Below the pieces are notes generated by a model, which searched no databases, was not told where the DNA came from, and saw only the letters and a list, made by a program, of their open reading frames with translations. The position numbers were made by a program, and so were the translations under genes. DNA of 64,000 nucleotides, from contig NC_088305.1 of NCBI RefSeq assembly GCF_032854445.1, positions 26,500,628 through 26,564,627 on the forward strand, in the 5' to 3' direction. Origin of the DNA: Liolophura sinensis. Lineage: Eukaryota; Mollusca; Polyplacophora; Chitonida; Chitonidae. Shown here one piece after another: positions 2,692 to 37,984 of the stretch (its first letter is position 1; each line of letters starts with the position of its first letter).

Positions 2692-5600
2692 TATCTGGAG
2701 AGACGGTTCCAGCATCGTGCTGTGAAATTGGTGGGTTCCGTGATTATGCTGATTCAGCAGGTAAGTCACCCATGTAGAACTTTCTGAATTATACACTGAT
2801 ATCTATTCTCGTTAATCGTGCAGCTATTTATCAACACAAAGCGCTCCGGTTTGATGTACCCATAAAACTGAACGCCTTTCTATACGTGAAAATTTCTTGA
2901 GTTTCATGTTATGCAAATAATCAAATACATAAACTGGTTGACCCAGTTTCACTATAATGTGGCTGGGCGAGGTGTCATGTCTGGTTCCTGCGACATTATA
3001 CTTCAGTGGCGGCATGGACTTACTCTCTCACACACAATTAATGACTTCTAGTGGCTATATTACATAAAACCTAAGCATACATATCCCCCCCCCCCCCCCC
3101 AAAGAAAAAAAAATGGACGCAGCATATTGTTTTCTGTTCAGGACTCTGGCTGTTTAAACCCTTATAGTGTCGTTTTCGCCAAATCTCAGTGGCTCTTGAC
3201 CAATAATATCACAGGTTCGAATCCAGCTCTCGCTGTTTCTACTGCGGTTTAAAGTCTGGTTAGTCCGGTAAAATGAAAAACCAATGTCTTCAATTTAACA
3301 TAGTTTTATGTTTTGTGAGTGATGGTAGAGCAGATCATGTCACTTGTGGACAACACAATGCTTTGTTACACCAACAACAGTAATGTGACATCCCCCATAA
3401 ACTTGTCAGTCGTTGAGTGTAAAGAAAAAGAAATACATAGATATTTTCTGTTACAGACTTTTTTGTATTTTGATTGTAGATACTGTACATGGGTATCGCC
3501 TCTTATGCTCCATCCACAGCTCTGGAAGCAGGTGCAGTAAATCATATGTATTATATTTAGTATATGGATATGACAATTTCACTCTTAAATGTAGTGCCAT
3601 ATTTTCTCGCCAAGTCCAAGAAACAAAAAATGTATTTATTTAATTATTTCCTTATGCAATGGCAGCGACTATTTTGATGAGGTAGGGTCTGCTGGAACGA
3701 ACAGTCGGAGAGGAAGCCAGCATGCGCTCGACTTCCTAAACAACATATAGTAAAGACTTATTTATTTGATTTATTTGATTGGTGTTTTACGCCGTACTCT
3801 AGAATATTTCACTTATACGGAAGTCAGCATTGTTGTCAGAGGAAACCGGGCAGAGCCCGGGGAAACCGACGAACATCCGCAGGTTTGCTGCCAAATCTTC
3901 CCACGTACGGCATATAGTGAAGACATATGGTTACCATGATAACGGTGTTTGGGGTAGTGTTAAGGCAGCTTTGTAAGACGGGACCAAGGTACTCCCAAAA
4001 AAAACACTTGAGTTGAAATCTGAAACATCATGTTGTGTTGTTTTCATTCAACACAGAAATGTGTTACCTCAACACAAACGTTAAATAAACATGTTTGTTA
4101 CAAAATAATAAAACACAAACTGGTGTTGAACTAAAATTTATGCATGTCGTGCGCAGTTGTATTGGTACCACAAAACTTGTGTATAGCATCCCACGCATCT
4201 TGTGTTCAATTCTTTCAACACAACACCTTTTGTTACTTAAAACAAGATAGAGTTGTTCAAATATGACACAAGCCTTGTTAGACAGAACACAAGTGTTTCT
4301 TGCGTTTACCTAATGAACTTCGTATTTTTACTTATTGTCCTTAAAGAACACACTAATGGGGGGACCGAGTTTGAACTCGCACATTGTAAATCTCGTGGTA
4401 AGGAGTTTTGCGCCTTGATCACTGGTAACTGAACCACATGCTGCTCCCTACATCTAACATTTTAAAGAAGATTTTTTTTCACGTCATGTTACATGGAGTA
4501 CAACGGTTCATTTTACCTTTCTCTTTTTTTTCTTCAGTGACCAAGTTCCCAGATTGGGCTACAATCATCATTGTCTGTATGGTGGCGACCTTCTACACTA
4601 CACTGGTTTGTATCTAATGACTGCATTGGTACTACCAATCTCTATTGTTTTATCAAACATTCGCAATAAGTGATTAAAATAAGAACATATATATCTAATA
4701 TCAAAATCCTCGTAACGGCCCCGATAGCTCAATTGGTAGAGCGTCCACGTCAGGAGTGGTAGATCCAGTTTCACTCCTGGATCGGGTCACACTCTTACTT
4801 GCCTTCGGTAAATCATCTCAGTGAAGCAGCACTAGATAAAAGAGCAGTGGAAATCAAGGAGGCACATTTTCGTACATGCGCTCTAAGGACTCGTTCGTCG
4901 TCATATGATTGAAAAATTGTACGATGTTAAACCCTAAGCACTCACTCACTCGAAACTCACGCAAAAGAACATGTATAAATGTAATATCTCTGCATTCCTA
5001 AATGGTTAAGTGACTGAACCAAAAATTCTCCCTTTGGTGATAAACTGACGGTCTGACTATTCTCAAAAATAACAGTGACGTTTTTAGTTTTGTCTCGAGT
5101 CAAAACTTATGTCGTAGAATAGGACAGCGATACTTATGAAGTGAATTACTGCGAACTCTAAATATAAGGATGCAAAACAAACTGTACTTTACCCCAAGCG
5201 TTTTTATGTAAAGTCTATAGCTTCTCTGCAGCTTACAATCCCTAACTAATCAGCTTTCTTTGGTTAGGCTGCGGCTTCAAGTCAGGCAAATGTATGATAC
5301 TTGGCGATGGGGCGGTGGTTTACTCCGCCTGTGTACTCTATGCACAAGTTATCAATACCCATAAAAATTGATGGTATTCCTTTTAATAGCGAAAAATCCT
5401 GAGTACGGCGTTAAACATCAGTCAAAATCAAATCTTAAGTACGGAGTTAAATTTAATCGACATCAAATATTGTTGTAAGGCTTTTGGCACAACTGTTTTT
5501 TTAGGGTGGGATGAAGGCCGTTGTATGGACAGATGTATTCCAAGCCGTTATCATGGTTGCTGGGCTGTTCGCTGTGATAATACAGGTATTGAACATACAT

Positions 5601-8600
5601 AGTGAAATAAAACTAGAAAGTGGGTGAACGTCAGCGGATGATAAAAGAAAACTGGAGATAAAACTACATTTGCTACTTTGTTGCTGCCTCGCTTGGCGCT
5701 TAGCACTGAGGTTAGAGCAAAGGAAACAGTACTGCTTGGCTCGGTGTCAGTATAATGTGACTGGGAAGGGTGTCATACCTGGTGTCGTCGGCCGGATATT
5801 CCAGTGGCGGCATCACTTTGGCGACCATGTCGCACAGTATAGGTACACACACCTGCTACCTCCTCGTTGTTATATGACTGAAAATCGTTAAGTACGATGT
5901 TAAACCCCATGCATAGGGACATATATTTGCTTGTATTATGAAGTAATTTGGCATCATTGATCTTGTCGATAACTGTGGTGGCAGTCAGCTGTCAGTTTTT
6001 CTTTATTTTTACCTTTGAAACAATTTGTTGTTAAATTTACTGTAGTGTAATGGTCACCCACGTAAACAGCGTGTTCATACATTAAATTGGGGTGTGGGGT
6101 GATAAATGTGTTACGTCACGGATCCTCACCACACCGGCGTAATAGTCAGACGTTTGGCTGTGTTTATTTCAGTGAAAACTTCGAATGAAATATAATGAAA
6201 TGGTAATTCCACACATCACTTCAGCAGTCCCTTCCTCCACTGATGGTGAATTTCTTGTTCTTTCATTTTAAATAGAATTATATAAATAGACTACACGTGA
6301 AAAATAAACGCGTTTCTTTTACATTTGTATATAACCTTTCTGCAAGTTGAATATGCATGGTCCGGGCAAGCGTTTATACACTCTACGCTGTGTGTGTAGG
6401 GCCTAAACACAAAGGTCGACACAATCTTGTTTTCACTTTTTAAGCACATGATTGGCTCAATATGTGAGGAGAAAAGGTGTTTAGGTTGAAATGTGGAGGC
6501 ATTAAACATGTGGAGGGCACCAAATATTTTTTGTCTGGGAATCCTAAACATGTTTACCTCCAAAACACATGGTAAGCTAAACATATTTGATACCTATGCA
6601 CAAATCCACTGCATACCTTCGCGCATTACCTGCTTAAGCTTTTTTAACATGTCATTATGTAAACATGTGTAAAAAAGGAGGTGCTTAGGTTGTTCTACTA
6701 TGGAATTAATTGTCTTCATTCACACCAGCATTTAAGGAAGGTCTGTAAAGTATGCAACATTTAAGTATTAAGCATTGAAGTAATGTTGCAAATGACATTA
6801 AACCGTAGCAAACAAACAGATCTCTCACAAGACCTATGTACAACCATTCTACCTGAATAGTTCACCACTATTCTACTACAACCAATGTCTAATAACTAGG
6901 TTGTTTTTGCTGTGAGTTAGTGTTTTCATCTAATAACGTAATAATTAATGCAATAATAAAATAAAAACTGATCAAAAGATATCATGAATGGAACTTTTAA
7001 TCATGCCAATGTAATAAATAAACATTTCCATGGAACCACGTTACTATGGAAACAACGATAATAACGAGGGATACATGTCTACTCTGTTTACCTGAATTGA
7101 AAGCTTAAATTATTACAACAATATGCAGTAATGTAATAATTTATTTTGTGAACAATCCATAACGTCAATGTGGGTCAGTCTTCAACTATAATGTTTCCAG
7201 ACAACTTTCAGAAACAAATAACTTATACAGACATGTCCACGAAAACATTATTTACACGTAATTAACCACTGAAACTGTAAGTCTTGTTATTATGATACTG
7301 AAGTGACTTTCGCTATGCCACAATTTACCACCTTCACAAATCCTACGTCACGTTGGCTTCCCTACAGTAGGACCCTTGGTTGAACAGAACACTGCAGTTA
7401 CGTATAGTTCGACTTAGTTACAGGTGGTGGGCCTTCGTACTCAGCGTAATGACCCAGGAGTTTCTCACTAATGTGGTCCCTGTGAGTTTAAGTCCAGCTC
7501 ATGATGGCTTTCTCTCCAGTCGTACGTGGGAAGGTCTCCAGCAACCTGCGGATGGTCGTGGGTCTCCTCCGGGCTCTGCCCGGTTTCCACCCACCATAAT
7601 GCTGGCCACCGTCGTATATCTTGAGTACGGCGTAAAACACCAATCAAATAAATAAATAAAAAAATAAATAAATAAAGATATGCAAATGTACAAGGGCAAA
7701 ATAATATGGCAATCTGTATTATCTGTACACCAGTCATAAATTGGTAAAATTTGATGGACTTGTCCACACTGTCTTCTTCAGGCATTCGGCAACTTCAATT
7801 TATATAAAACACAAATTAGTGACTTCATTTTATTTTTGAAGCAACAGAACTGGTTTAATACCAGTAATATGTAATATATAGGTTTATGATAACCGTGCCT
7901 CACATTTCACTTCACATACGTCTGGCTGTCAAACGCAAATGAAATAATACATAAATATTTTCGGTATTTTGCTCTTGACAATGAATATCAATATTTTGGT
8001 ACCCGGTACAGGTAAATACACAGGTTCATTGTATAGGCCTACATGTAATAAGTAAGCTAGTGTTCCTGTACATGCTGCCATGAACATTCAATGCTATGTT
8101 GTTACATTCTAGCTAGGATTTCGCTTCGATTCCTAAATGTATCTGCTCTGCCAGTGTGACAATACTTTCTCAAATCAAGGAAAACACACCTTTAATCGCA
8201 TACATTGCTTCGCAGTCCTTTCATGTTTAGATGTCAAATTTAGGCAGTTTCTGAAAAGTTAGGAGGAGTAAGCATCGATCATATTGCATAAATATGCGAG
8301 TCATCATACAAATACAGGCTGATTAACACGCTGACTGCTTCAGTGCTTCATCCAACGCTGAATATGACTGCAGTGATGTTAGTTTGAAGCTAATTGAAGT
8401 GTATCAGAATTTTGCCGGATTTGGGCAGAACTGTGAACTGTTTGTCAAGGGCTTTTCGTATATAATGATGCACAATACAACATAAACTGTACAGCAGACA
8501 CAAACACAAACAATTTTATGAGAAAAGATAAAAACGATCAGTACATACCATGACCACAATTGCCAAATACAGAGACACTTCTCGACATCTTCTCTTCCAA

Positions 8601-11600
8601 AAATGAGCAGACGACCAGCCTCGTTTTCAATCAGATCACGTGTACTATGGCACGGGGCCTACACACGTTCAGACCAAACATGTTTGGTTACCAACTGAAC
8701 TAAATAACAGCGTCATAAATATCATCATATAGACATGTTTAGCTGTTACGTGTGTTCTTAATAATGTGCTTACTTTTCCGTGAAGCAATCTTACGTGTTT
8801 AGGTAGATGAGTGCTTCGCTTTGTGTCATCTTTGTGTTTAGCTCGGATATGCCCTATGGCCAATAAACCACGATTACGTGTTTACACTAATCGTGTGTAA
8901 CAATTAAACGTCATGAAACAGATTCTTCGTGAATTTTTGCCAAACGTGTTTAGCATGTTGATACATTGTGTGACATGTCAAACCTTTTCAGGTGTCTCCG
9001 ATGTGTGTTAATCCTTCACGCCACATTTAGAGTGTAGCTTTATGCAACGAAATTTTACCGAAAGTGAAAATTTTCACATCTCCGTATAAATACAGTATCG
9101 TTGATCGTATGCATAATCTTGTATTTCAGAATACTTCCTGAATTAAAGAAATAAGTAAATTAATAAGTTGATCATTAAATATTAGCCAAGAATTAAAATG
9201 GTATATTTGTTTGACTTTCGTATAGGGTGCCATTTCGGTGGGAGGTCTAGGTGAGGTTTGGAGACTGAACGAAGAATGGGATCGGATAAACTTTCCAACG
9301 TTAGTATCAATTATTTGTTTACTTAATTGATTGGTGTTTTAACGTACATGACGACGATCAGTGAGGGAGCAAATCGTTAAAAAATTCTAACCTGAGATCG
9401 AGATCTGGATTCGAACCCACGTCATGATTGACATCCCAGGGCTTGACATCTGCAGCAAAACAGGCTCTTTAGGCCCAAGGCCATCCGTAAAAATTAATAA
9501 AAAATATCTGCGCCATGATTTTGGGGGACGAATAGCGAAAAGCACATTTATAGCAAGGAAACATGACTGGTTGGCCCGGCGTCAGCATAATGTGACTCGG
9601 TGGGGTGTTACAAGAGAACACAATATATATCGGTTTAAATTTCAGACCCCCATTATAAGAAGTCGAACTTTATGCCCAAATATGAAGTTAATGTATACCG
9701 AGTTCTCCTTGGCCGAGAGGTTCGCGTGCTAGCGTATCACAGTAAGCCTCCCACAAATGATTTATTTATTTATTTATTTGATTGGTGTTTTACGCCGTAC
9801 TCAAGAATATTTCACTTATACGACGGCGGCCAGCATTATGGTGGGTGGAAACCGGGCAGAGCCCGGGGGAAACCCACGGCCATCCGCAGGTTGCTGATGG
9901 ACCTTCCCACGTACGACTGGAGAGGAAGCCAGCATGAGCTGGACTTAAACTCACAGGGACCGCATTAGGGAGAGACTCCTGGGTCATTACGCTGCGCTAA
10001 CGCGCTAACCAACTGAGCCACGGAGGCCCCTCCTACAAATGATTTATTTATTTCACTGGCGTTTAACGCCATACTCAAGAATATTTCACTTTTCTACGAC
10101 GGTGGCCAGCATTACGGAGGGAAAAAGTCGGGCCGACCATCCGCAGGTTGGTGGCAGACCTTCTCACGACCTCCCACAAATGCAGTTGATGTGAGTTTAA
10201 GTTGAGCTCTTGCTGTCTTCTTTTCCGGCCGTACATGGGAAGGTCTGCCCGGCATTATTGAAAACTGATGACCGTTTCTCTCTTGTGTGTTACCGGCTTT
10301 ATTGCTTATTTGTATAATTTCTTACAGACCTTTGTCTTTGGGAGTTAGTGTTAAACGTTGTTTTGGAAATGGATCTGCGATTATCGTCTTGGAACGTCTT
10401 TTACGGACTACGAATGGTATATGAATGTCGGACTTGACGCTTATATTCAAGCAGCCTGCGGATGGTCGTGGGTTTCTCCCGGGTTCTGGCCGGTTTCTTC
10501 TCACCATAATGATGTAATATGTAAAATATCCTTGAGTTTGACGTAGGACACCAATAAAACAAATAACATATAATGTATTCCCGCAGGTGAAACTTGCAAT
10601 TTAAAACATACAACTAAAATACTGTCTATGGCTTTTAAATTCTACCCTAGGAACTTTTCTGTCTTAGATTTCACCCCGATCCCACGATAAGACACAGCTT
10701 CTGGAATCTATTTGTTGGCGGCACAGTCAGCTCTATGTCTAACTTCGCCATCAGCCAGGCCAGCGTTCAGCGCTACTCTACACTGTCCTCTGTCAGGAAA
10801 GCTCAAGTGTAAGTATTCGTTGTCTCGATTTGACGAACATATGGTAAACGGCAAATCTAAAGCAATGAGGCAATCGACATGACAGCACCTCTACGTAAAA
10901 CCCTAAACTGCAACAACAACAAAAACAAATAATCTTCATCATCATGCAGACACCCATAGGACTGTATCTAGAGCTGCTTCCCATGTACGATGTCCCCTTC
11001 ATTGATCATCATTAAACGTTTTTATTTAGTTTTGGATAATTCGACCATACTCCATAACGTATGACGTCACAGGAAGTTTCTCCAACTCTAATCACGACAG
11101 TGACTTTTTTTTTACTCATGACTGTTTTTTTTTACCCATGACTGTTTTTTTTTACCCATGGGTAGAAGATTACTGATAAAAGATTCCCAAAAATTCCTTC
11201 CTACTGTGAACATCAGGAAAAAAGGTAATGTGATGCTAGAGTTCCTAGATACCGTCAGTATGGCTCATAAAGCCCACCCTATTATTCAAATATTTAAATG
11301 CCCCTCAAAACGGTAAAAAAATTAAAGTATATTTACGTGTAGTTTTCAGGTGTCTGTATGATGAACCTTACTTTAGCCATAAACATTTATTCTAAAGTGG
11401 GGGGGGGGGGGGGCTTACGGCTAATTCTGCTTAAGCCATAGTGCTGGCGGTGTGTGAGTTATTTAAGCATTTACATGAACAGCCAGGATAAAACACCAGA
11501 GCCTCTATGGCCAAGTCGTCAGCAGGTTTGGATATAGGACAAAGCAAAAGATAACAACTTTTTATTCCAGGTCACTGTTATTGAACTGTATTGGAGTTGT

Positions 11601-14600
11601 ATTGATGATGACTCTGACATGTCTGTCAGGCGTGGTTATCTTCTCTTACTACGCCCAGAAAGGTTGTGACCCTTTGGCTTCCGGTGAAATCAAGAATTCA
11701 AACCAGGTGCGTAATCTGTAGGTAAGGGGAGATTTTTTTGTTTGTTAAGAATTTTTTGTATTTGTTTTCTTATTCTTTTATTGAATCCCCCAATCAGGTT
11801 CTTTGTTTATTTGTCTATCAACAGTTTCGAAGGAAAAGTGATGCACATATTTGCCTGAAATTATGTTTCCATGCGGCAACCTCTTACTAGATAGCCACAT
11901 CGAATAACTTTTCCATAGCTAAGCGAAGGAGTCGACCTAACTTTACAAAAAACAAAATGGAAAAATCTAATGGACAAATAGAGGAGCGTGTCTGTTTGGT
12001 AGTGTTCTCAGTTCTGTGTTACAATCCCTTATCACCAGATCGCCCCATATTTTGTAATGGAGGTCCTTGATTACTTAGGCCTACCTGGTCTGTTTCCAGC
12101 GTGTCTGTTTTGTGGAGCTCTCAGTTCTATGTCACATTCTCTCTCCACCAGATCGCCCCATGTTTTGTGATGGAGGTCCTTTGTTACCCGGGCTTACCCG
12201 GTCTGTTTGTAGCGTGTCTGTTTAGTGGAGCTCTCAGTTCTATGTCACTTTCTGTCTTCACCAGATCGCCCCATATTTTGTGATGGAGGTCCTTTGTTAC
12301 CGGGGCTTACCCGGTCTGTTTGTGGCGTGTCTGTTTAGTGGAGCTCTCAGTTCTATGTCACATTCTCTCTTCACCAGATCGCCCCGTATTTTGTGATGGA
12401 GGTCCTTGGTTACCCGGGCTTACCCAGTCTGTTTGTGGCGTGTCTGTTTAGTGGAGCTCTCAGTTCTATGTCACATTCTCTCTTCACCAGATCGCCCCGT
12501 ATTTTGTGATGGAAGTCCTTTGTTACCCGGGCTTACCTGGTCTGTTTTGTGGCGTGTCTGTTTAGTGGAGCTCTCAGTTTTATGTCACATTCTCTCATCA
12601 CCAGATCGCCCCATATTTTGTGATGGAAGTCCTAGGTTACCCGGGCTTACCCGGTCTGTTTGTGGCGTGTCTGTTTAGCGGAGCTCTCAGTTCTATGTCA
12701 TCTTCCCTGAAACGCTGCCGCCACAGTCACATGGACAGATTTCCTCAAGCCTCGTTTTGGACACCTTTCCATGAAGAAACAAACTCTCATTACGAAAGGC
12801 CTTGGTAAGTGAACTTTATTGGTGATTGAATCTGTCGCTGTGTTTAGAACTTATGAAATTGTGGCAGTCATCTAATAAGGAAGGAAATTATTTTAAATGA
12901 TTATTGATTATAAATTTTCGAGCAACGCATGATGTACTTCAACGGCGTTATGTTCAAATAGGTTGGCGGGGGGCATCAACAAAATGAAATCAAGCCAAAC
13001 TAATATCAAATCAGAACCCTAAAACATTGAGAATCCTGTGATTGATTTGACAAATCCTGCTACCATGTGATATAGGCCTTGAGCAACAGTCGTGGTATCA
13101 CAAAATGCGAATACTCTGTTACAAATGAATTGCGATTTTGCCTTTCTCAACGATCAACTTCTGCAGTGTAATGACAGACAATGACTCTGGTTGAAAGTTA
13201 GGTCTACAGTTTAGATTATAATGAAAATAAGGCAACCGAACAGCTATAATTGAAAACAAATATCATATCATATTATCACTATCATTATTAATTAATTAAT
13301 TGCAGTCGTTGGATTCGGCGTTATAGGAATCGCCATGTCCTTCATGGCAAGAAGTCTTGGTGGTACAGTTATTCAGGTAATTTCTTGTCTGTTCTACTTT
13401 TTAGCAAAGTAAATTAATACGCGCTTTGTCGACCAAGGTATTAAGAATCTAACTGTTCAGTTAAAGGATGCATGAAGGCTTGATTTTTATTTCTTAATAC
13501 AGAGTTTATGATGTGGCCTAAATATGAAAAGTACATAGAAGCCTCTCAGCTTTTTTCGTGGGGCGTGGCTTTAAGCTAGAGTTTTTCTGAGGCCTCAGCG
13601 GTCAGTCCGGAAACTAAGCAGCCTAACCTGGTGATGCCAACGATTATAGCTGTCAAAACTACTTTGATGGGGAAAGAGCCCGATATGATTGTAAAATGCT
13701 GGTCTGTCGTTCACAGTATGTTCATAGATGACGTCATTTCCGACCATTGACGGAAAACATACATAAGATAGAGGGGTTATTAAACAAGTATTAAATATGT
13801 CTCAGAAATCTTTTTTTAAAATATATTTTTCGGCTTATATTTCTTCATTTGCTTACAACAATACTCGCCTTTTTATAGTACTCTTTCATGTATTCTTTAA
13901 ATTCTGCACAGTTGCATGCCTTGTGCTGTTATAGTCTCTTTGTGGTATGTTAGTCTCACCCTCTATCGATGCGTCGTCGACGCAAGGGCACTCTCAAGTT
14001 GGCATTTGTCACGTGACGAGTCTGCAATTAATCAGGTTACCAACCGATAGGCTTCTTGCAAATCATAGTATAAATGAGAACAAAATAGAGAGTAAAACCG
14101 GAGCAATGAGCGTGATAGTTTTTTTATGCAATTTGATTAGTAGGCCTTCCGGTGTACACCAATTTACAAGTTCATGAGTCGTCAAGAGATCGAGTTTTAC
14201 CCACTGAAATCCCAACAAATCTATGTGTGGACATAATAAAACAAAATAAGTCTCCTGTAAATAAATATTTCCGAACGCGATGTTCTGTATTAGCGCTTAT
14301 CTACCGGATTAAAGGGTAAAACAATTTAATCACGTGATGAGCTCGTATTGTGTTCCTTTCAGCCGTTCGGATGTTTATTATATTCATTCTTTGCTTGTTC
14401 TGCAGGCAGCCTCGGCTTTTACTGGATCAGCATCGGGGCCTCTGCTAGGACTCTTCCTTCTCGGTGGTGTCTTTCCCTGGGCTAATTGGAAGGTTCGTAT
14501 GTACATGCAGCGACGGAGAATATTTGGCTAAAATTCCGGTGCGGACTGTTTACTCGATGTTCTTCAAACGAAGGGTGTTTTGTCACATTTTGCGTTTCCG

Positions 14601-16966
14601 GCGCATGTCAAGTTGATGTCCATATGTGATGAAGTAATATCCAAAAGTTATGCAGCCATCACGTAGCTGAATATATGTATTTGTTTATTTAGTTTGATTT
14701 TTGCGCCCTAATCAAAATATTTCACTTATACGACGGCGGTAAACATTTTGATACATGGAAAAGAGCAGACCCAGGGTGAAACCTACGGTTATCTGCAGGT
14801 TGCTGAAACAGCTTCATACGCAGGATCAGACATGAAGCCCGCATAAGTTGGACTTGGACAGTATCATTATGCTGTGCTAGCACGCTATAACCACTCGGCC
14901 ACGGAGGCGCCCTAGATGAATGTAACTGTGTGTACGTGTTTTAGGGAGCCGTGGTCGGGGGCATAGTTGGACTGGCCTTCCCAATGTGGATCAACATAGG
15001 CTCGTACACATTGGACCCGGAGAGTCATAATCTCCCCTCCCCCATAGAAAACTGTGATCCCATCGTCACCACACAGCCGCCGTCCGATGTGGGGGACATG
15101 TAAGTATTGTATACACATGCACACGCACCCACGCACGTGCACCCACGCACACGCGCACCCACGCACACGCGCACCGAAATGATAAGGGGAAACAAATGAT
15201 TTATATCGCTGGGGCTACTTTCATTAAACTTCGTCGATCAAATTTTTTGGTAATTGGCTCTTTTTCGTAGATGGCGTTGTCTGGGTTATATCGCGCCATA
15301 AAACTTTACGTTTTGTGAAAGTGAGAGCGCAGGTACGTTAGACAGCGATCTGAGCGGAACAGTGCTGGAGCTAGTAATAGTCAAATAATATTTCACACTT
15401 AAATTTAACTTAAATTTAGCAGCATTCAGGTTATTTGAAATTCTGTTCATAAAGTGTACCTTTTAGTTGATTTATTTATTTGGTCCAATGATGTTTTATG
15501 TCCTACACAAGGATTTTTCACTTCTACCTACATGTATATGAGGACCGCAGTACCGAAGTAAACCACTGCCCTTCCGCAAGTATCTGACAAACCTTCTGAA
15601 ATAAAGCAGTTACAGGACCAGTGAGAGCTGGATGCGTGATGTAGGTAGAATAATTTATTTTATTAATTTCATTAGTCTATTGTTAGTTATAAACTACAAG
15701 TCACAACGACTGTTCTATGCGGGGAAGTAATCTAATACTCAAGGATACTTCACTTAGACGACTCCGGACAGCATCATGGTGGATGAAACAGGACATAGCC
15801 CGTGAGAAATAGCGAGAATAAAGCTTGAGGTCCGTTAGCTTTGGTGTCAGTTGTAATATTGTATTTTTCTATTTCTCCCAGCACTGGTATCAGCAAACTG
15901 TACACGGTATCCTACCGATGGTTTGCTTCCGTTGGCGTCGCCACGTGTGTCATCGTGGGTTTGGCGGTAAGCTTTGCCACAGGTAGGTCATCAGGTAGTT
16001 AGGGGCGATGATTGCTCTCTAGAGAAGCGGGTGGGATGGGCTATCCAACATGGCCTACACAAATAAGTAACCACTGAAGTAATGTAATTCAGCAATGTTT
16101 TGCTGCTCCCGAAATGTTTTATTCACACAGTACACATTCACCAGAAAGTTTAATATAAGGACTTACTATATAAGAGAACGAACAAAAGAACACGTAGATC
16201 TGAAATGCTTTGTTACAGACAGAAAGGGCTTTACCAGGCCACGATTATTATATATTTAGACGGAAGTGTGCTAAACGTAAAACACCTTCACTGGTTAACT
16301 TCGTCCGTTAAATCTGTCACTTGGCCATATATCAACCTAGTTTTGTTTCTTCAGTTTTTATGTTCCATTTTACCCTGTGGCGTTTGTTTTCACTCATGCA
16401 CAGGGCCTACAAAGCCTGACCAGGTTGACCGGAAGTACCTCATTCCGATTTTTGATAGACTCTTCTGCTGTCTCCCGGAGCGGGTTCTGGGTAAATGCCG
16501 TTGTGGAACAACTTCTCAGGAAGACGAGGTAATTTTGGCGCAGTAATTTTGAGTGGACGGCAATCCTGGTTCCATACATAGGACCCAGCAACGTATAGAG
16601 GCGATTGCCCGTCGATCGATTTCCCCCCACAAAGTGCTCTGTAATCTAAAACTCATGTTTCTATTTGTATTTATTCAGTAAATCAAAGGTCCGTAAAACC
16701 TACCAATTCTTTGTTATGTACAGGATGAGGAGTTGGATGATCTGGAGACGAGCACTGATCTAAAACAACAGTCGATAAAAGGAAACAAAGTGGCGCCAGC
16801 TGAGTCTAATGAAACCAACACTGATTTCAAGCCACGGTCATTAAACGAAAACAAAGAGGCACCGATGAAGTCTGATGAAGAGATGAAAGAGCCAAACGGA
16901 ATCGAAAAGGGGGAATTCAATGAGAAAAAGGGAGATAACTCGGAAACCATTCAACACGGGATTTAA
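2692..16966 (+). CDS. SLC5-family sodium-coupled solute (monocarboxylate-type) transporter, + paralogue, exons 2-15
   Basis: Fourteen exons with GT-AG junctions and consistent phases: 2692-2760, 3480-3531, 4538-4605, 5505-5585, 9226-9299, 10668-10808, 11571-11706, 12605-12804, 13306-13376, 14406-14492, 14945-15099, 15882-15982, 16404-16528, 16724-16966 (TAA stop). The translation carries SLC5 hallmarks: [13 protein letters not shown], the [15 protein letters not shown] helix, SMSSSL, and GPLLGLF. By family knowledge this is a plasma-membrane Na+ symporter with about 13 helices; SLC5A8/A12 carry lactate, pyruvate and short-chain fatty acids, but SLC5A5 (iodide) and SLC5A6 (vitamin) are close relatives and substrate cannot be read here. 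The N-terminal exon is not visible in 1-2691 and probably lies off the left edge. Exon 9 has a one-base insertion (AAA at 12710-12712, AA in the paralogue) that shifts the frame and gives a stop at 14483-14485 in exon 11. So this copy is a recent pseudogene, a null allele or an assembly error. The C-terminal tail is hydrophilic and Lys/Glu-rich. Confidence 0.9.
2930..3016 (+). repeat. SINE B-related fragment
   Basis: CTGGTTGACCCAGTTTCACT, ATAATGTGGCTGGGCGAGGT and CAGTGGCGGCATGG match the centre of the copy at 5680. Confidence 0.65.
3757..3912 (-). repeat. SINE A copy, 3' part
   Basis: Begins on + strand with TTTATTTGATTGGTGTTTTACGCC (tail complement) and ends at CCCACGTACGG; the tRNA-like head is missing, as is usual for 5'-truncated SINEs. 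Confidence 0.85.
4717..4957 (+). repeat. SINE B copy with internal deletion
   Basis: GGCCCCGATAGCTCAATTGG (tRNA-like head) to AACCCTAAGCACTCACTCAC. Relative to 31045-31410 it lacks about 115 bases between the head and CTTGCCTTCGG. Confidence 0.85.
5680..5925 (+). repeat. SINE B-related copy, different internal module
   Basis: Starts at CGCTTGGCGCTTAGCACTGA, has GGTGTCAGTATAATGTGACT and ends GTACGATGTTAAACCCC. It shares the 3' part with SINE B but has its own centre. Confidence 0.7.
5925..7420. other. Intronic A/T-rich stretch without recognised features
   Basis: Lies inside intron 5-6 of the + SLC5 gene. Words such as AAACATGTG and GTTTAGGTTG recur between 6400 and 6700, and similar TTACGTGTTTA words occur near 8700-8960. 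No exon is supported. Confidence 0.4.
7425..7675 (+). repeat. SINE A copy, near full length
   Basis: Runs from CAGCGTAATGACCCAGGAG (tRNA-like head partly lost) through GTGAGTTTAAGTCC (box B-like) and the body with GGGCTCTGCCCGG to GAGTACGGCGTAAAACACC and an (AAAT)n tail. Confidence 0.85.
9510..9615 (+). repeat. SINE B-related fragment
   Basis: GACTGGTTGGCCCGGCGTCA, GCATAATGTGACTCGGTGGG as in 5680-5925; 3' end lost. Confidence 0.65.
9758..10031 (-). repeat. SINE A copy, full length, with target-site duplication
   Basis: Best reference copy for family A. The minus strand starts GGGGCCTCCGTGGCTCAGTT, GGTTAGCGCGTTAGCGCAGC (tRNA-like, box A), then GAGTTTAAGTCCAGCTC (box B-like), a GGGCTCTGCCCGG hairpin and the (AAAT)n tail. 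It is flanked by CCTCCCACAAATGA (from 9747) and CCTCCTACAAATGA (from 10029). Confidence 0.92.
10036..10182 (-). repeat. SINE A copy, 5'-truncated, inserted at the same site
   Basis: Immediately adjacent to the previous copy and in the same orientation. It lies between CCTCCTACAAATGA (10029) and CCTCCCACAAATG (10170), the same short sequence that flanks the first copy. Confidence 0.85.
10188..10565 (+). repeat. SINE A copy, interrupted
   Basis: Middle part GTGAGTTTAAGTTGAGCTC to GGGAAGGTCTGCC (10188-10250) and then GCCTGCGGATGGTCGTGGG to GACACCAATAAAACAAAT (10452-10565), split by about 200 bases of other sequence. Confidence 0.7.
11100..11165 (+). repeat. Short tandem repeat, about 21 bp, three copies
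   Basis: TTTTTTTTTACCCATGACTG-type units. Confidence 0.8.
11420..11510 (-). repeat. Family D right-flank remnant
   Basis: GGCTAATTCTGCTTAAGCCA and TTTAAGCATTTACATGAACAG are the complement of the family D right flank. A 15-base G-run lies next to it. Confidence 0.65.
11982..12604 (+). repeat. Tandem array of partial exon-9 units (113-114 bp) in intron 8 of the + SLC5 gene
   Basis: The acceptor motif CACCAGATCGCCCC starts at 12033, 12146, 12259, 12372, 12485 and 12599, a spacing of 113, 113, 113, 113 and 114. The last one is the real exon 9. Each unit has a pyrimidine-rich intron end and AG, then about 96 bp of exon 9 up to TCTATGTCA, then jumps back to the intron end. No unit holds the second half of the exon or a donor site, so these are not usable alternative exons. 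Unit boundaries are sharp and units differ by only a few bases. Confidence 0.9.
12605..12804 (+). CDS. Exon 9 of the + SLC5 paralogue, with a +1 frameshift
   Basis: The exon is 200 bases, against 199 in the - paralogue, where phases require 199. It follows the acceptor CACCAG and ends at CTTG/GTAAGT. It encodes the helix starting [17 protein letters not shown] and the serine cluster [11 protein letters not shown]. In the related iodide transporter this region includes Ser/Thr residues of the sodium site (family knowledge). After TCC CTG the paralogue reads AAC GCT GCC; here an extra A makes AAA CGC TGC and the frame is lost. Reading through from upstream array units does not rescue the frame: the frame of a preceding unit runs into TGA in the next unit (ATT TTG TGA). 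Confidence 0.85.
14677..14912 (-). repeat. SINE A copy, diverged
   Basis: TTATACGACGGCGG near the tail end and CTCGGCCACGGAGGCGCC at the head; many substitutions suggest an older insertion. It lies just before exon 12 of the + SLC5 gene. Confidence 0.75.
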
Positions 16967-19053: not shown

Positions 19054-22000
19054 TCACTGGATCATTTTCCTCATCGTTACCATCCTCATATGATTGTTTT
19101 TAGTTTTCTTCTTCATGGACAAGCCACCATTTTGGGCACCGTCTTGGCTCTGGCTCGTATACGCCTCGTCTAAACCTTCCTTCGTCTCTAATGGCGCCAC
19201 CTGATTGTCCTTTCTCGAACAGGCTTTGATGTCGCCGTGGTCTGCCACATTATCCAGTTCATCACCCTAAAACATTCAGGCAATCATTTAGTCTCTAATT
19301 AGGACCAATTCCACAAAGTTGATTTGGATATATGTCTGCATCAACGGCCAAATTTTAATCCTTGGATTTAAAATTAGTAACACGTAAACACGAAGATGAA
19401 CTTCGTTAGACGCAAAGAATGCAGCGTAAATTATTTAAGATTTTGACTCAAGTCAAAACTAGCTTTGTGAAGTCGACGTCCTGCAAATTAAATACAGGGT
19501 GACTGTGTTACGTGGTGACAGAAGAAATGAGACAGAAAACAAAACACATTTCAATTACTTTAACAGCCGGCTTAATTTCGGAGAAGACACCTAAAACATC
19601 ACAAGGTAAACTGGTAAACTGAGATATTACAGATACTCTGGTAAATTTTGAAGCCCCTGACCTAGCTTGAGAGGTGCCGGGCTATACAAAAGACTATACC
19701 GTCAGGCAGCAACCTGCGGATGGTCGTGGGTTTCCACCCGGCTCTGCGCGGTTTCCTTCCACCATAATGATGGCCGTCGTCGTATAAATGAAACATTCTT
19801 GATTACGGCGTAAAACACCAATCAAATCAATCAATCAATCAATCAATCACTCACTCACTCACTCAATCAATCAATAAATAAATAAATAAATAAAAGACTA
19901 TACCATACAGAGAGTAAAACCAGAGCAGCGACGAGAATGTGATGGCTGGCAAATAATCACGTAATCAGTGACCTCTTGTCAATTTACCTCGGTTAGGGTT
20001 TTATTCTAACTGTTCATGAAAATTCTTAAATGGTAGTAAATTACACGCCCCATAACACTATGGCCTAAGAAGAATTAGGTAAAAAATATGCGGTGATGTT
20101 AATTGCAATATATTCGACGTCACAGGTATATAAGGTTAGACTGCCCTTCTTTGGGTAAACGATCCAGTGGTTGCTAACTAGGCTGCGGCCGTGAGCAGTT
20201 GTCAGGTAGATAACGAAGTTGTTTAAACGTCTCGCTTTTAATATTCATTGACTGGCCAGATATTTCGATTGTTATCTGGACTGATCATTGAACTGTTTTC
20301 TGAAATGTTTACTGGGCGATGGTGAAGAACTGTTCTCTGCCATGAGAGCGACGACTTAGACACTTAGCCACCGATTCTCGATGAATTGTGGAAACAGTAT
20401 TTGTAATTACCTCGTCCTCTTCTTCAAACGTTCTACCACATCGGCATTTGCTTAGGATTTTGTCCGGTAGGCAACAGAAAATACGATCGAAGATCGGGAT
20501 GAGATACTTCTTGTCTAACTCATTCGGTTTCATAGGACCTAAAATGAAATTTCACGAAAAACAATTAAAATTAGATTATACAAGATAAATTCAAAGAAAA
20601 AGAACATTAATGACTTTCTATCACGTTGTGAAAGAAATAAAGTGATTTGAAAATCCAGGGTCTGCACATAATTTACACGTATTACACATACATGTACTCA
20701 TATATTGGTACTGGGTTGTTCCACGCTGTTGGTGTGTTTACACGTTTCAGTGGTTACGCTATCACACTTGGACACTATGAAAAACCTCGAAACTCTGAAA
20801 AAGACGGCTAATATAACTATAACCACAATTATAATTTCTGTATCAATAATTATTTATTAATTACTAAATAATCAATCCAAAAATCCATATAGTTTTAAAA
20901 CTTTAATTATTTCAAAATTTATATGTTCAATTTGTTTTTCATTACCTCATGTGCATGTTTTCATTGTCTTATAGACTCTATTTTCTGCAACCTAAGTATT
21001 GTATATTTGATTTGCCTTTATATATCCAAAAACACGTCTTTGAAACTGTATACTATATTTTATAAGCCTTTGGCTTTAGGTGTACTTTTTTAATAAATCT
21101 GCATTCAAAACAAAGAACAAGAACATGTACAGGTTTTGATTACAAATATAGAAGGTGTGAGAACTGGATGAACAGAGAACCTTTTCCGGGCATTATCTGA
21201 GTAGTCTCAGCCTGGCGTTTTGATGACGTTTGTGAGAAAACTGGTAACGTATTACTCGTGCATTGCAAGGGGACAATGGCCTATTCAGATTGGACCCGAA
21301 TGACCACTGCTTGCGTACCTTGTTTCAAGCTTACCTGAGGCAAAACTCACAGCTAGACCAACGATGACGCAGGTAGCGACCCCAATCGACGAGAACCACA
21401 TGTAAGAAACTGTATAAAGATTGCTGATCCCCGAACTGAAACAATAAGAATCATGATTAAATAATGCGCATATCTATTTTTGCCAGCAACCATCAACTTG
21501 GGATTGGATCTCGATGAATGCGTGGTCCAAATGTCCACTTTACGCTGCCATCTCTCTTTCAAAATTTACCAAACAGAATTTCTTTCTTTATTTTTTGTCT
21601 GTTTAATGTTTTTTTTTGAACGATGACTCTGAGGTTTCTAAGTGGACGAAACTGGAATACCAGAAGTAAACCACTGCATCATCAGGTATTTACATACCTC
21701 CTGGCGTAAAGTCGCAGCCAAGCCATATAAAGAGGGAGACTGTTGGTCAGTTAACATGAAATCAACGCCTTTGTTAACAAAGCCAGGGATGGCCCTTACC
21801 TCAACTTATATATTAAAATTTAAAAATATGCCAGTCTTTCGTCTGTTGTGTAGTGTGTGGTTTGGCTTTCATCGTATCGTAATGAAATATTCTTGATTAT
21901 GAAGTTCAATTCACAAAGTAAAAAAAGAAAGAAAGGAACAAAGAAAGAAACAAAATACAAACAAATAAACTGACAAACAATAAGCAAATAAATAAACAAA

Positions 22001-25000
22001 CAAACAAACAAACAACCAAACAAAAAAAATAAACCGTTTGTGACTTACATCTCGGTGACGGTAGTTGGGGGTGGCGTGGTGATATTCCCAGGGCACGAGC
22101 CTGTGGGGCCGGGGAGGGTATGACTCTCTGGGTCAAGGCTATACGAGCCTATGCTAATCCACATGGGGAAGGAGAGCCCCATTATCCCGCCAACTACTGC
22201 ACCCTGAGGAGGAAAGTACGAATAAATGAACTGTAACAGAGTGCGTATGAGAACGAGTGTCGGGTAACTTTATTTTTGATAATTGACTAATGGGTTGAGT
22301 GTGGCAAATTCTCCAGTTTCAGCCATACCCCTTACAGCGCATGCGTCGCTCTCATCAAGTTTGCTCACCTTAGATCACTGCCACCGCTAGACAAGCTTGA
22401 TCTTTGAAGCATGTGCGAGGCGCGCAAGCGTGTTAAGACTTAGCCCCATAGCTTGTGCGCTATCGCGAAACTATTTAATCAACCTTCATCAACAAAATTG
22501 ATTCGTGCGGATGCTTAAGAGTCATGCTGTACAAACTTTAAACAAACAGAGTGAATGTGTGTAAAACATTTTTAGAAATAAATGTTGACGCAGAGTTTTT
22601 GTGTTTTCTGACTTCCCTTTTGCGTCATCATCGTGATCCCAGTGACCTTGGCGTTGTTCAAGATTTCTGTAAATTTGTAAGTGGTGCCAGTGATGTATAA
22701 CACAGAGATCGGCATATGTGCTGTAAAGAGTATGAGTTACAGCTCTCCGGGTATAAATTACCATTTTCCATTTCATATTCATCACAATTCATATGCAGAC
22801 ATAGTATGACCAAACCTTCCAGTTAGCCCAGGGAAAGAATCCGCCGAGGATAAAAAGTCCCAGCAGAGGTCCAGAAGCTGAACCCGTGAATGATGCCGAG
22901 GCCTAAAATATAAATGATGTCAGATTGGTGAGAATAAAACATATAAAATCTATTTATTTATTCCTTATGAATTTTACTAAAGAAGTTTTCACTTGTACAA
23001 TGGTACGTAAGTTTTATGTGTGAAGGAAACCGGCGAGTGCCCGTTGTAAACCACCGACCTTTGGCAAGTTATTGACGAGCTATACCACCATACTGAAGGA
23101 AGTGATCTTCAACTCAATTTTGGCTGCCAGACCCAAAAGCGGCCACACAGGTGTCGTCGACCGCTTATCGTCACCAGCGACAAGCGGTGACCGCAGGGAA
23201 TATAGAAATTCTACATCACAGATAATTATGAGACATCCATTGTGTTAATTCTACAAGGCATCATGAAGATAATTTCAAAATTTGGATTTTATGTTTTACT
23301 TTCAGAAGCTATTAAAGGTTTAGCAACTGAATGGGTTTTTTTTTCAGTGTACAAAACAGACATGATATTTGTACATTGGCAGTCATTCGACATCCATATA
23401 AACAAATAGCCCATAAATGATATATATATATGACAAAAACCAAAAAATAAAAGTGTAAGGACCTGTAAAACTGTTCCGCCCAGACTCCTCGCCATGAAGG
23501 ACATGGCAATTCCTATAACACCAAATCCTGCCACTGGAAAACATAGAGTAGAGGCATATGTACCTATTTTATGTCGTACCTATAAACTACTATGGTGCAC
23601 TACATACGGAATGTGATTCCATTCTTTCGCGCAAAACATTACTTGCGTTTTTCTAACATTATTGAAAAACGTCCAATTTGGTTGACAGCTGGTATACGGA
23701 TGCCTTCACGCTAAGATTCAGGTGCTGGGGGATTGTTTCCATCAGAGTTACATGTACGGCGGCGGTCTGGGTTTCAGCGTTAACAAGGCTAAAGTGACTA
23801 AAGCAATATAACCTATGATGACGAAAAGGTATCCATTTTAAAGCTTGCGTTTACTTCACCAGTTAAAAGATTGAAGACTAATTTGTTAATGAATGAAATA
23901 GTGGCCAAAATTTTAGATTTACTTACCTAAACCTTTTGTGATGAAAGTTTGTTTCTTCATGGAGAGGTGTCCAAAACGTGGCTTGAGGAAATCTGTCCAT
24001 GTGACTGTGGCGGCAGCGTTCAGGGAAGATGACATAGAACTGAGAGCTCCGCTAAACAGACACGCCACAAACAGACCGGGTAAGCCCGGGTAACCAAGGA
24101 CTTCCATCACAAAATATGGGGCGATCTGGTGAAGAGAGATTGTGACATAGAACTGAGGGCCCAGTTAAACAGACATTCCACAAACAGACCAGATAAAACC
24201 GGGTAACTTAGGACCTCCATCAAAAAATACAGGGTGATCTGGTGAAGAGAGAATGTGACATAGAACGGAGGGCTCCGTTAAACACACACGCTGCAAACAG
24301 ACCGAGTAACCAAGAACCTCCATCACAAAATGCGGGACGATCTGGTGAGGAGAGATTGTGACACAGAACTGAGGGCCCCGTTAAACAGACATTCCACGAA
24401 CAGACCAGGTAAGCCCCGGGTAACCAAATAGACTGGGTAACCCCAGGTAACCAAGGACCTCCATCAAAAAATACGGGTGATCTGGTGAAGATTGTGATAT
24501 AGAACTGAGACCTCCACTAAACAGACACGCCACAAACAGACCGGGTAAGCCTGGGTAACCAAAGACCTCCATCACAAAATACGGGGCGATCTGGTGAAGA
24601 GAGATTGTGACATAGAACTGAAAGATCCACTAAACAGACACGTCATACATAGACCGGGTAACCCCGGGTAACTAAGGACCTCCATCACAAAATACGGGTG
24701 ATCTGGTGAAGAGAGAATGTGACATAGAACTGAGGGCCCCGTTAAACACACACGCTGCAAACAGACCGGGTAACTAAGAACCTCCATCACAAAATGCGGG
24801 ACGATCTGGTGAGGAGAGATTGTGACACAGAGCTGAAGGCCCCGTTAAACAGACACGCCACAAACAGACCGGGTAACTAAGGACCTCCATCACAAAATAG
24901 GGGTGATCTGGTGAAGAGAGATTGTGACATAGAACTGAGGGTCCCGTTAAACAGATATGACACAAACAGACCGGGTAAGCCCGGGTAACCAAGGACCTCC

Positions 25001-28000
25001 ATCACAAAATACGGGGCGATGTGGTGAAGAGAGAATGAACTGAGTGACATAGAACTGAGAGCCCCGTTAAACAGAACGGGTAACTAAGAACCTCCATCAC
25101 AAAATGCGGGACGATCTGGTGAGGACAGATTGTGACACAGAACTGAGGGCCCCGTTAAACAGACATTCCACAAACAGATAAGGTAAGCCCGGGTAACCAA
25201 ACAGACCGGGTAACCCCGGGTAACTAAGGACCTCCATCACAAAATAGGGGCGATCTGGTGAAAAATGGATGACTGTTTCTCTCTTACCATTTATCAGCTT
25301 TTTTTTGCGATTTTATTATTATTCCTTACATATTCCTTTGACACCTTTTGCTTTAAGTTGTTTTGGAAATGGATCTTACGATTGGTAACTTGGAACTCCC
25401 ATTCACAGATTATGAGACTCTTTGATCTGGTAAACTTTGATCTAAACCTGTTCAGCATTGCCTTACCTGGTTAGAGTTTTGTATCTCCCCTGCGTACAGT
25501 GGATCGCAGTCTTTCTGGGCGTAGTAAGCGAAAATCACCACTCCAGCGATACAGGTTAGACTGACCATGAGGATAACTCCTATACAATTCATCGCCAAAG
25601 ATCTGTTGAGAAAAGGGTTAATGTCTGCGGTCACTGTGGTTCTCTTCATTCCATATACATATACATGTATACAAGTATAAAAGCACGCTTGATAATAAAA
25701 CTATATTTTTCTATGGTTACATTTTAGGCTTATTGTTGGAATATAATGAGAACATTCGACGGGCCACAGACAATTGTCACTACACGAATCTTTAATACAT
25801 CATTATATCCTATGTCTACACGAGGAAAATTGACAAGTGTCTGTATTTCATCGATTACGTGTGACCATTTACCAACTATCTCACTGTCATGGTTATACCC
25901 TCTATGTTATAAGTCTTTCATTATACTATAGTCAGATTTAAAGGAGAACAAAATTTAAAAACATGACACTATAGGCTGAAAAGAGCACATTTTTTTCTAT
26001 CTGGTGGCCCTGCTGCATAATTTCGCGATTTTTCCTCGCCCAACACGTAAAGCCTGAAAACGGCAAAGCTGGCATAAATTGCTGAGTCCATGGCGTCCTC
26101 CATCTTTAACACCCTGTAATTTATGCTGGGGGTGTGTTGCCTCTGAGCCAATGAGAGTCATTAAAACTGCCGGCTTGTTCGTGTAAACTCGGAACCTACG
26201 TCCAACATTCCAGATTCTCGATCGTCAAGCGGAAAACGAACTGTACTGTTCGCTATCTCCTGGGAAGAAGAGTTTTACCAGAACTGTACTAACTGCACTT
26301 TGGCGGTTTCCGACAGCAATTCTCCTCCTAACAAAGAACACTCCAGGACTAGTACTTAAGCAAAATGGAGTAGCCCACATCGGATTTTTGCGCTGACTTT
26401 ATTTATAATTTATCAACTTGAGGTACATATTGGAATTTTTTTTTATGGCATGCACCTGCGAGGAAATACTTACTCTTTTCAATGGTATTTGATTGATATT
26501 TGAATTTTCCTTTAATTGTGGAGGAAATCGGAGTACCGGTGGTAAACCACGTTCTTTTGGCAGCAATCTGATTTTCACTGGGCGATCTCGATGTCCATGC
26601 CATATTTTAGAAAAGGAAGGAGTCTCCAAACAACTTGACATAAACGACTTAAAAGAGCCGATGAGGGCTGTGAACAGTGCGGGGTTGGGGAATCAAGAAA
26701 ACACCGAAGATGAACTCACACCATCTTCGCTTGACCTTACAAACATAGTTTTCTCTAACGGTGGGAATTAATCGGTTGGCAGTAAACTTGTCCAGATCCG
26801 CTACAGCAAAGCTGCAGTCTGTGAAGCATGCAATAGCAGCCTGTTTGAAAAGAATACAATGAAACGTAAATTTAACGAATAAATCATGGAGTGCACAACA
26901 CTCACAATTGAGCCATCCTGACGGTGGGGAGCGTGGAGTAACGCTGGACGCTGGCCTGGCTGATGGCGAAGGTGGACATTGAACCCACGGTTCCACCCAC
27001 AAACAGGTTCCAGAAAGTGTGTCTAATGGTTGGGTCCGGGTTAAAACTTAGGGCGGAAAGGGGATCATTTAGTGAGATAGTGTCATGAAATAACGCCATT
27101 GTTAAACAATGTACAGATTATCCATGTTTGAAAAGTAAAAATATTGTACTGCTGATCTTTGTCATTACTAAATACTTCCTCAGTAATACGATTATTATGT
27201 AAGCACGTCAAAAACATGGTTAATCAAATGAAAACATGGTTCATTTGATTAGCGCGCTAAAGCAGCGTAATGACCCAGGAGTCTCTCACCAATGCAGTCG
27301 CTGTGAGTTCAAGTCTAGCTCATGCTGGCTTCCTCTCTGGCAGTACATGGGAAGGTCTGTCAACAACCTGGGGATGGTCGTGGGTTTCCCGCGGGCTGTG
27401 CCCGGTTTCCACCCACCACAATGCTAGCCGCCGTCGTATAAGTGAAATATTCTTGAGTAAGACCAAACAAACAAACAAATAAATAAATAAATAAATAAAT
27501 AATGTTCATTGCTTTCATTGGTCACATGTTTCTCGGTAAAATATGCCAGAAACATACGTATCTGTTTTTTTTGGCTCAGTATTGCTTGCAACTGTTACAT
27601 TACTTCGTTCAGATCTAAATGGTGTTACCCATATGACAGAACAATCCACGTTAACCCCAAGCATCCATTCATTCACATGATGGTATGGTGGCATTATGCC
27701 CTTAAATTCAAACCAAAAAGTATCATGATTGCTATTTTCAAAATACGTCTTACACGAGTTCTCAGTGGTTAATGATGAGCAATGGTCTCGAGCTTGCTAA
27801 GTACATCATATGACCTTTTGAAGCCGGCTTCCACAAAAATGAACGATCCATCTACAGTGCAAAGCCTTGACCTCGCGATAGTACACGGTTTCTAACGGCA
27901 CGGTACTGTTAAGACCAAAATTGACAAGTACTTTGTGGCATCTGTTCTGTACTTTGTGACAATTTGATGTCAGTACAACACAGTTAATGGCTGTATGGTG

Positions 28001-37189: not shown

Positions 37190-37695
37190 TTCCAGAAAAA
37201 GTAGAGAGTAAAACCAGAGCAACGACGAAAATGTGATAGTTGGCAAATAGTCACACGTAACTGGTGAAATACGGCTACAGCATAGAGTAAAATCAGAGCA
37301 GCGACGAAAGTGTGACAGTTAGCAAATAGTCACACGTAACCGGTGAAATACGGCTACAGTATAGAGAGTAAAACCAGAGGAGCGACGAAAGTGTGATAGT
37401 TGGCAAAATGGTCACACGTGACAGGTGAAGTACGGCTACAGCATAAAGAATAAAACCAGGGCAGCGATGAAAGTGTGACAGTTAGCAAATAGTCACACGT
37501 AACCGGTGAAATACAGCTACAGTATAGAGAGTAAAACCAGGGCAGCGACGAAAGTGTGATAGTTGGCAAATGGCCACACGTGACAGGTGAAATACGGCTA
37601 CAGCATAAAGAATAAAACCAGGGCAGCGACGAAAGTGTGATAGTTGGCAAATGGTCACACGTAACCGGTGAAAAACACCTACACCATAGAAAGTA
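37190..37695 (+). repeat. Family D tandem repeat, about 81-bp units
   Basis: About six units with AGAGTAAAACCAGAGCAGCG, TGTGATAGTTGGCAAATGGT, CACACGTAACCGGTGAAATA. The same unit is found singly or tandemly elsewhere. Confidence 0.88.
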
Positions 37696-37984
37696 AAATA
37701 ACAATTCATTCTTGAATGACTCAGACAACAGACTTTTGAGTGTAGTTACCCAAAATACTCAGAGTACTTGTTTGAGTCATTGTTGTTTTTCATCGCACTT
37801 AGCAATATTTGCCTCATATAACAGCGGTTAGGTTTACGTGCGGACGAACTCAGACAACGCCCACGGAAAACCACCCCTCCTGGCCATATCCCACATGTAT
37901 CTCTTGACTGCACCGTGGACTAGTCCGCGGAAGCGGAGCTCAAACCCGAGACTTCTCAGGAAAGTGGAAAGGGTTTTCAGAATA

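Follow-up and report, generated by a model that had tools for sequence, protein, structure and literature searches.

Minisatellite-like tandem duplications of an intron/exon boundary, known as mirages, are described in sections of two reports for globin genes of amphioxus and for Adh3, troponin C and PGBD5 (PMC3087553, PMC3902484); the sections on lancelets propose them as raw material for new introns (PMC3087553, PMC3902484). For the amphioxus globin gene BflGb6, the account of the locus gives 6 units in one haplotype and 3 in another, each 150-160 bp long and 81-100% alike, with splice signals in many, not all, of the units and concerted evolution from which the edge units are excluded; the same account reports normal splicing by RT-PCR (PMC3087553). 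Among the matches listed from the open-access literature, none was a mollusc mirage.

Two convergent SLC5 genes and the arrays before exon 9

The stretch of DNA analysed here (64,000 nucleotides, referred to as the window) comes from the chiton assembly GCA_032854445.1, whose species name has been corrected to Liolophura sinensis (PMC12441733). It holds two SLC5 genes, named plus and minus after their strands, and each of them has an array built from the same unit in front of its exon 9. The features are as follows.

2692..16546, + strand: plus SLC5 gene from exon 2 to exon 14; its exon 1 is outside the window, 1,625-1,966 bases upstream (C11:26498662-26499003)
11986..12604, + strand: mirage-type array before plus exon 9; five decoys, each with an acceptor, 96 nt of exon sequence and a linker of 17 nt, from repeat finding and unit alignment
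12605..12804, + strand: plus gene, real exon 9; length 200 nt, with its donor GT at 12805
12708..12710, + strand: AAA where the minus gene has AA, a +1 frameshift in plus exon 9, from the alignment of the pair
20309..36701, - strand: minus SLC5 gene, an open reading frame over exons 1-14 with an SSF domain (PF00474)
23927..24125, - strand: minus gene, real exon 9; length 199 nt, open
24126..25264, - strand: sister mirage-type array, ten decoys, acceptors at 25254, 25115, 25020, 24907, 24805, 24702, 24590, 24481, 24341 and 24238
25254..25278, - strand: 5'-most minus acceptor, with non-repeat intron ahead of it; candidate for the original 3' splice site

The two genes converge and have the same 14 exons each. 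The product of the minus gene matched PF00474 at E 7.8e-34 and, among solved structures, the sodium-dependent multivitamin transporter (1.7e-129) and the sodium-coupled monocarboxylate transporter 1 (3.4e-125); by sequence similarity the pair are SLC5 symporters of the sodium-coupled vitamin/monocarboxylate-like kind. Exon boundaries were placed by hand in the window genes and, in the paralogs, from tblastn matches and the closest AG or GT, and all internal splice sites placed in exons 1-13 of both genes read AG or GT.

Tandem Repeats Finder (threshold 50) gave the plus array, 11986-12700, a period of 113, 6.3 copies, 91% matches and a score of 1141, which is not chance. The word CACCAG|ATCGCCCC occurs six times on the plus strand, with the first exon base at 12039, 12152, 12265, 12378, 12491 and 12605, so that the acceptors are spaced by 113, 113, 113, 113 and 114 nt, units 1-4 being 113 nt long and unit 5 being 114 nt long. 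In each unit, 96 nt taken from exon 9 are joined to a pyrimidine-rich linker of 17 nt whose last letters are AG, and pairwise identity among the six ranges from 84 to 96%. Both the word search and the repeat finder thus bear out the earlier note, which had described six 3' splice sites at a 113-114 bp period, each followed by the first part of exon 9; its statement that only the last acceptor is followed by the rest of the exon and a donor also holds (12605, with the GT at 12805). Its term "broken acceptors" does not fit, because the acceptors are intact and it is the exon copies that are truncated, giving five decoys and one real site.

A second array made of the plus-array unit, absent from the earlier note, precedes exon 9 of the convergent paralogous gene (24126-25264, - strand). 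It comprises ten decoy units within intron 8, with an acceptor spacing of 95-140 nt. AG is kept in 6/6 plus and 10/11 minus acceptors, the exception being the minus acceptor at 25020, where AG has changed to AC. A genome search with the unit placed 19/19 matches within C11:26512613-26525889, that is, at these two loci, the counts being lower bounds since the search skips very common words; across the two loci the units are 72-97% alike. In the minus units conservation was 0.90 in the 17 nt before the exon and 0.91 in the first 20 exon nucleotides versus 0.81-0.83 elsewhere in the unit, a pattern that selection on splice sites could also give; in the plus units the splice part was no better conserved (0.92 vs 0.92-0.99).

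The anatomy is that of a mirage: tandem duplications span an intron/exon boundary, and each unit joins an intron end carrying the splice signal to an exon edge, the signals being kept in many of the units (6/6 plus and 10/11 minus AG). The word GTCATC is found both at intron position -19 of the 5'-most minus acceptor and at exon 9 position 93, and the pair is a candidate microhomology for the first duplication; against it, the two copies lie 111 nt apart vs a unit of 113, and a six-letter match may arise by chance.

Intron loss, frameshift and apparent exchange in exon 9

In the other SLC5 paralog loci the sequence of exon 9 is divided between two exons, 9a and 9b, found apart in 18/19 of the loci read (L005 shows 9a only, and some of the 9b matches are weak, with E up to 0.47). 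The 9a donor, AG|GT at the position of the fusion in the window pair, is visible in 16/19 of them. Exons 9a and 9b are fused in both window genes (12605-12804 and 23927-24125), an intron loss, and given the paralog counts the fused exon 9 is the derived state. The array unit spans the fused 9a/9b joint, so the array is younger than the intron loss. No exon-9 array was seen at any of the 19 other SLC5 loci read, of 25 such places listed; weak extra exon-9 matches occur at L009 (E 0.40) and L018 (E 0.04).

The real exon 9 of the plus gene had been located by the earlier note, which missed its +1 frameshift. Exons 1-8 of the plus gene are open and exons 10-14 are open to the terminal stop in the frame of the minus gene; the frameshift puts the first stop of the plus reading frame at codon 438. 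None of the six plus acceptors gives an open frame through exon 11, and a start of exon 9 at 12691, considered as a rescue of the frame, was rejected as it meets a stop inside the exon. The AAA at 12708-12710 could be a genuine lesion, an allelic variant or an error; since exon 9 is frameshifted, the plus product is possibly defective whichever acceptor is used.

Exon 9 differs from the rest of the coding sequence in its similarity between the genes: identity is 190/199 vs 1030/1374 in exons 1-8 and 10-13 together (Fisher 3e-13). The minus exon 13 used in the boundary counts had its acceptor off by 1 base and its donor by 16, and the corrected exon leaves the figure of 1030/1374. Divergence at silent sites (dS) was 0.04 in nucleotides 1-105 of exon 9, where there is one difference between the plus and minus genes, 0.35 in the rest of exon 9, 2.16 in exons 1-8 and 2.40 in exons 10-13, the values above 2 being saturated and rough. 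With dN/dS at 0.05-0.06 in exons 1-8 and 10-13, the gene pair was long under constraint. The near-identical stretch of exon 9 includes the part homologous to the array and stops about 50 nt past it.

The arrays themselves display similarity across the genes. P6 and M11, the two terminal units, are 97% alike and pair as sisters in the unit tree (88/91), the decoy units P4 and M7 are 96% alike, and the plus units cluster with M6, M7 and M11 (91/96, branch drawn open), in a tree that is poorly resolved, 1/14 inner branches being starred. Within the plus array, P2-P5 are mutually 94-96% alike and the edge unit P1 is 84-85% alike to the other plus units, which is the mirage pattern of concerted evolution within a cluster with the edge units left out, as far as a weak unit tree can carry it. 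Plus and minus units do not fall into two clean groups, which argues for homogenisation between the clusters too. Taken on these similarities, the first half of exon 9 and the array look as if recently converted between the genes. The near-identity of exon 9 might instead reflect strong constraint, the exon lying within the conserved SSF domain; this is very improbable, since the silent sites are near-identical too (dS 0.04 vs over 2 elsewhere) and the non-coding units are also alike across the genes (96% for P4 and M7). As to direction, conversion from minus to plus would fit, because the plus array begins mid-unit at its 5' edge and the minus array begins at an acceptor after non-repeat intron.

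A further, tentative idea that we hold to be rather less probable than its converse is that mirage arrays act as exon reservoirs, in which intronic edge copies serve ectopic conversion; the frameshift, which sits 10 nt past the array-homologous part of plus exon 9, would then be a scar of exchange. Were this so, paralogous array and exon would overwrite each other, and a segment of the protein would evolve in concert while the other exons saturate. If the array drives conversion, a non-coding repeat steers the evolution of a coding exon.

Similar arrays at other exon edges

Exon 1 of the plus gene has a donor-side mirage, in which copies of the exon end and donor (CTCCTATGAG|GTAAGT) make up two tandem arrays downstream of the exon (L020 590-1894, C11:26498989-26500293). 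Exon-1 donor copies were seen in 0/19 other SLC5 paralogs, of 32 listed besides the pair. An acceptor mirage at exon 8 of an SLC5 paralog (L021 joined with L015, C2:26464058-26464684) has 14 copies of a 45-bp unit made of 24 nt of intron and 21 nt of exon, and the array terminates in the real exon 8. A weaker 41-bp array at L003 2411-2756 includes the exon 8 acceptor of another SLC5 paralog with few exon letters.

Outside the SLC5 family, a mitochondrial-carrier exon (L055, C10:4935605-4938829) is flanked on its acceptor side by an array of 56 bp in 14 copies (760-1537) and on its donor side by one of 74 bp in 3 copies (1714-1932). It was the one clear mirage among 17 distinct carrier loci, obtained from 20 loci cut from 80 matches after dropping 3 that repeated a gene; at a further carrier, L048, an array reaches the acceptor without matching exon letters, and L046 scored 17. 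AG is kept in 10/13 of the units found at the exon 8 mirage and in 8/14 at L055, where the first of 15 pattern matches was omitted from the count as a non-unit.

Enrichment of such copies at exon boundaries was examined with windows of 16+16 nt on 170 SLC5 boundaries (174 placed, 4 with too little intron). A copy in the adjoining intron was found at 3/170 boundaries and at 0/170 in the best of 5 shuffles each; exon-interior windows had a copy in 2/170 and intron-internal windows in 62/795, or in 49/780 without the windows of the three arrays. An enrichment of mirages at boundaries was rejected on these counts (3/170 vs 49/780, the three arrays still counted among the boundaries; Fisher odds 0.27, p 0.015). 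With windows of 24+8 nt, 4/171 boundaries pass, L003 being added. The L015 boundary, whose piece is cut short, scores 15 alone and 26 when joined with L021; counting 4/171, the odds were 0.36 and p 0.042. Since boundaries are no richer in copies than intron interiors, neutral slippage is favoured, and from these counts we read the boundary mirages as ordinary minisatellite birth sometimes landing on an exon edge.

Other repeats were also observed. Two arrays in the window, at 32294-32648 and 37202-37698, have a similar 81-bp unit (AGAGAGTAAAACCAGAGCAGCGACG...), like a single stretch at about 14085, and perhaps derive from a dispersed repeat. A 73-bp array at 57727-58006 has an acceptor-like CTTTTCTGAACCTTTCAG in its unit. 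The open reading frames listed for 38000-64000 gave no further lead. The genome also includes a hemocyanin gene with eight units of PF14830, which we take to be the molluscan hemocyanin family.

Splice-site choice, origin of the arrays and known systems

Splice sites were scored with a matrix built from 83 acceptors and 88 donors of the SLC5 family in this genome. The plus decoys scored, in order, 5.6, 9.4, 10.8, 10.0 and 10.0 bits and the real acceptor 7.8, so the real site is outscored by 4/5 decoys. Donors inside the arrays were poor: the best GT of the plus array reached 4.2 bits (8th percentile of the 88 family donors) and that of the minus array 5.5 bits (11th percentile). By computed read-through a stop follows after 24-43 codons in 5/5 plus decoys and after 5-77 codons in 10/10 minus decoys. 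Two expectations of the earlier note, acceptors of similar strength (5.6-10.8 against 7.8) and harmful decoy choice (a computed stop in all five plus decoys), agree with these values. As judged by score, no unit holds the usable donor and acceptor that a new intron born from duplication of an AG/GT proto-splice site calls for. A tandem array of mutually exclusive exons does not match the units either, with no good donor in them and stops in all plus (5/5) and minus (10/10) decoys.

The account we prefer, with a probability of roughly 0.8 for the whole of it, is that the exon-9 arrays are mirage-type minisatellites, born by slippage, neutral, with decoys that are spliced out and with ectopic conversion between the genes. 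The ancestral intron between 9a and 9b would have been lost first; slippage or unequal exchange between short matches flanking the acceptor, for which GTCATC is the candidate, would then have started the array, which would have grown and shrunk as a neutral minisatellite. The spliceosome would pick the last acceptor and the decoys would stay intronic and be spliced out, because that acceptor is the only one followed by a donor at a distance of about 200 nt (exon definition); we infer its use from exon definition and from the RT-PCR described for the amphioxus gene (PMC3087553). Misuse of a decoy would bring an early stop, and the transcript would presumably be degraded. The array and exon sequence common to both genes would offer homology for ectopic gene conversion, by which one gene would recently have received the other's version of the first half of coding exon 9.

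A functional role is the first thing to weigh against that account, the decoys acting as a splicing brake that competes for the exon 8 donor, so that stop-bearing transcripts lower or time the expression of the transporter. Such a brake would make sense of the 4/5 plus decoys that score above the real acceptor, of the early stop computed for every decoy, of the AG kept in 10/11 minus and 6/6 plus acceptors and of the slightly better conserved 3' splice site region of the minus units. It sits badly with the number of decoys (5 vs 10) and their spacing (113-114 vs 95-140 nt), which differ between the genes, with the occurrence of like arrays elsewhere, one of them beside a donor and others at different exons or in a gene family unrelated to SLC5, with the partial retention of AG at the exon 8 mirage (10/13) and at L055 (8/14), and with the amphioxus mirages, which the cited account describes as being without splicing disturbance (PMC3087553). 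We regard the brake as unlikely. The earlier note had offered both possibilities, slowing or tuning of splicing and a slippage product; nothing tested supports the former, and the latter fits better, because like arrays occur at other exon edges, boundaries are not enriched and the amphioxus cases are reported to splice normally (PMC3087553). The arrays are probably a by-product of slippage and not a means of control.

Two other explanations have still lower standing, both highly improbable. An assembly artefact, in which one unit was expanded in silico, could be suspected from the coverage, the description of this HiFi-based assembly giving 14x (PMC11068029); yet the diverged units (72-97% alike) at two separate loci are not copies of one read segment, and the mean HiFi read of 8,347 bp given in the same description exceeds either array (PMC11068029). 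The units might also serve as cassette exons or form an exon array from which protein variants arise, for instance as in-frame 24-nt microexons ending at the GT after ATGGAG or ATGGAA, and exactly 24 nt (8 codons) do precede that GT in 6/6 plus units (ATGGAG in units 1-4, ATGGAA in 5-6). The score of that GT, however, is 4.0 bits in the first four plus units and below 2 in the last two; in the minus array it does not exceed 5.5 bits (11th percentile of the 88 family donors), and several minus units are shifted by one base.

The arrays are a natural test of how the spliceosome chooses among acceptors of similar strength, first-come or by exon definition. Several mirages in a mollusc imply a process that is either widespread or of more than one origin.

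Among known systems, the variable internal tandem repeats described in human segmental duplications are alike in being minisatellites at exon-intron boundaries that differ between paralogs; according to the passages concerned they can form new introns seen in transcripts, whereas the chiton units have no good donor (PMC2812944). The dual-specific AGGT splicing described for UBC and other genes also involves tandem units each with splice signals, but there, as the cited passages have it, the repeat is coding and one site is both donor and acceptor, and the chiton units offer good acceptors only (PMC10809524). Closer are Adh3, troponin C and PGBD5, in which repeats lie over 5' or 3' splice sites and are said, in the sections dealing with them, to occur without aberrant mRNA; the genes and the phylum are other ones, and the units measure 10-72 bp in Adh3 and 60 and 108 bp in PGBD5 (PMC3087553, PMC3902484). 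With BflGb6, as described, the anatomy is almost the same, both consisting of an intron's 3' end and the 5' part of the following exon copied in tandem (PMC3087553). That case, in the account cited, is a single gene of a cephalochordate with splicing tested by RT-PCR; the chiton arrays differ from it in belonging to a mollusc, in their 113-bp unit, in their presence in two convergent paralogs and in the apparent conversion of a coding exon.
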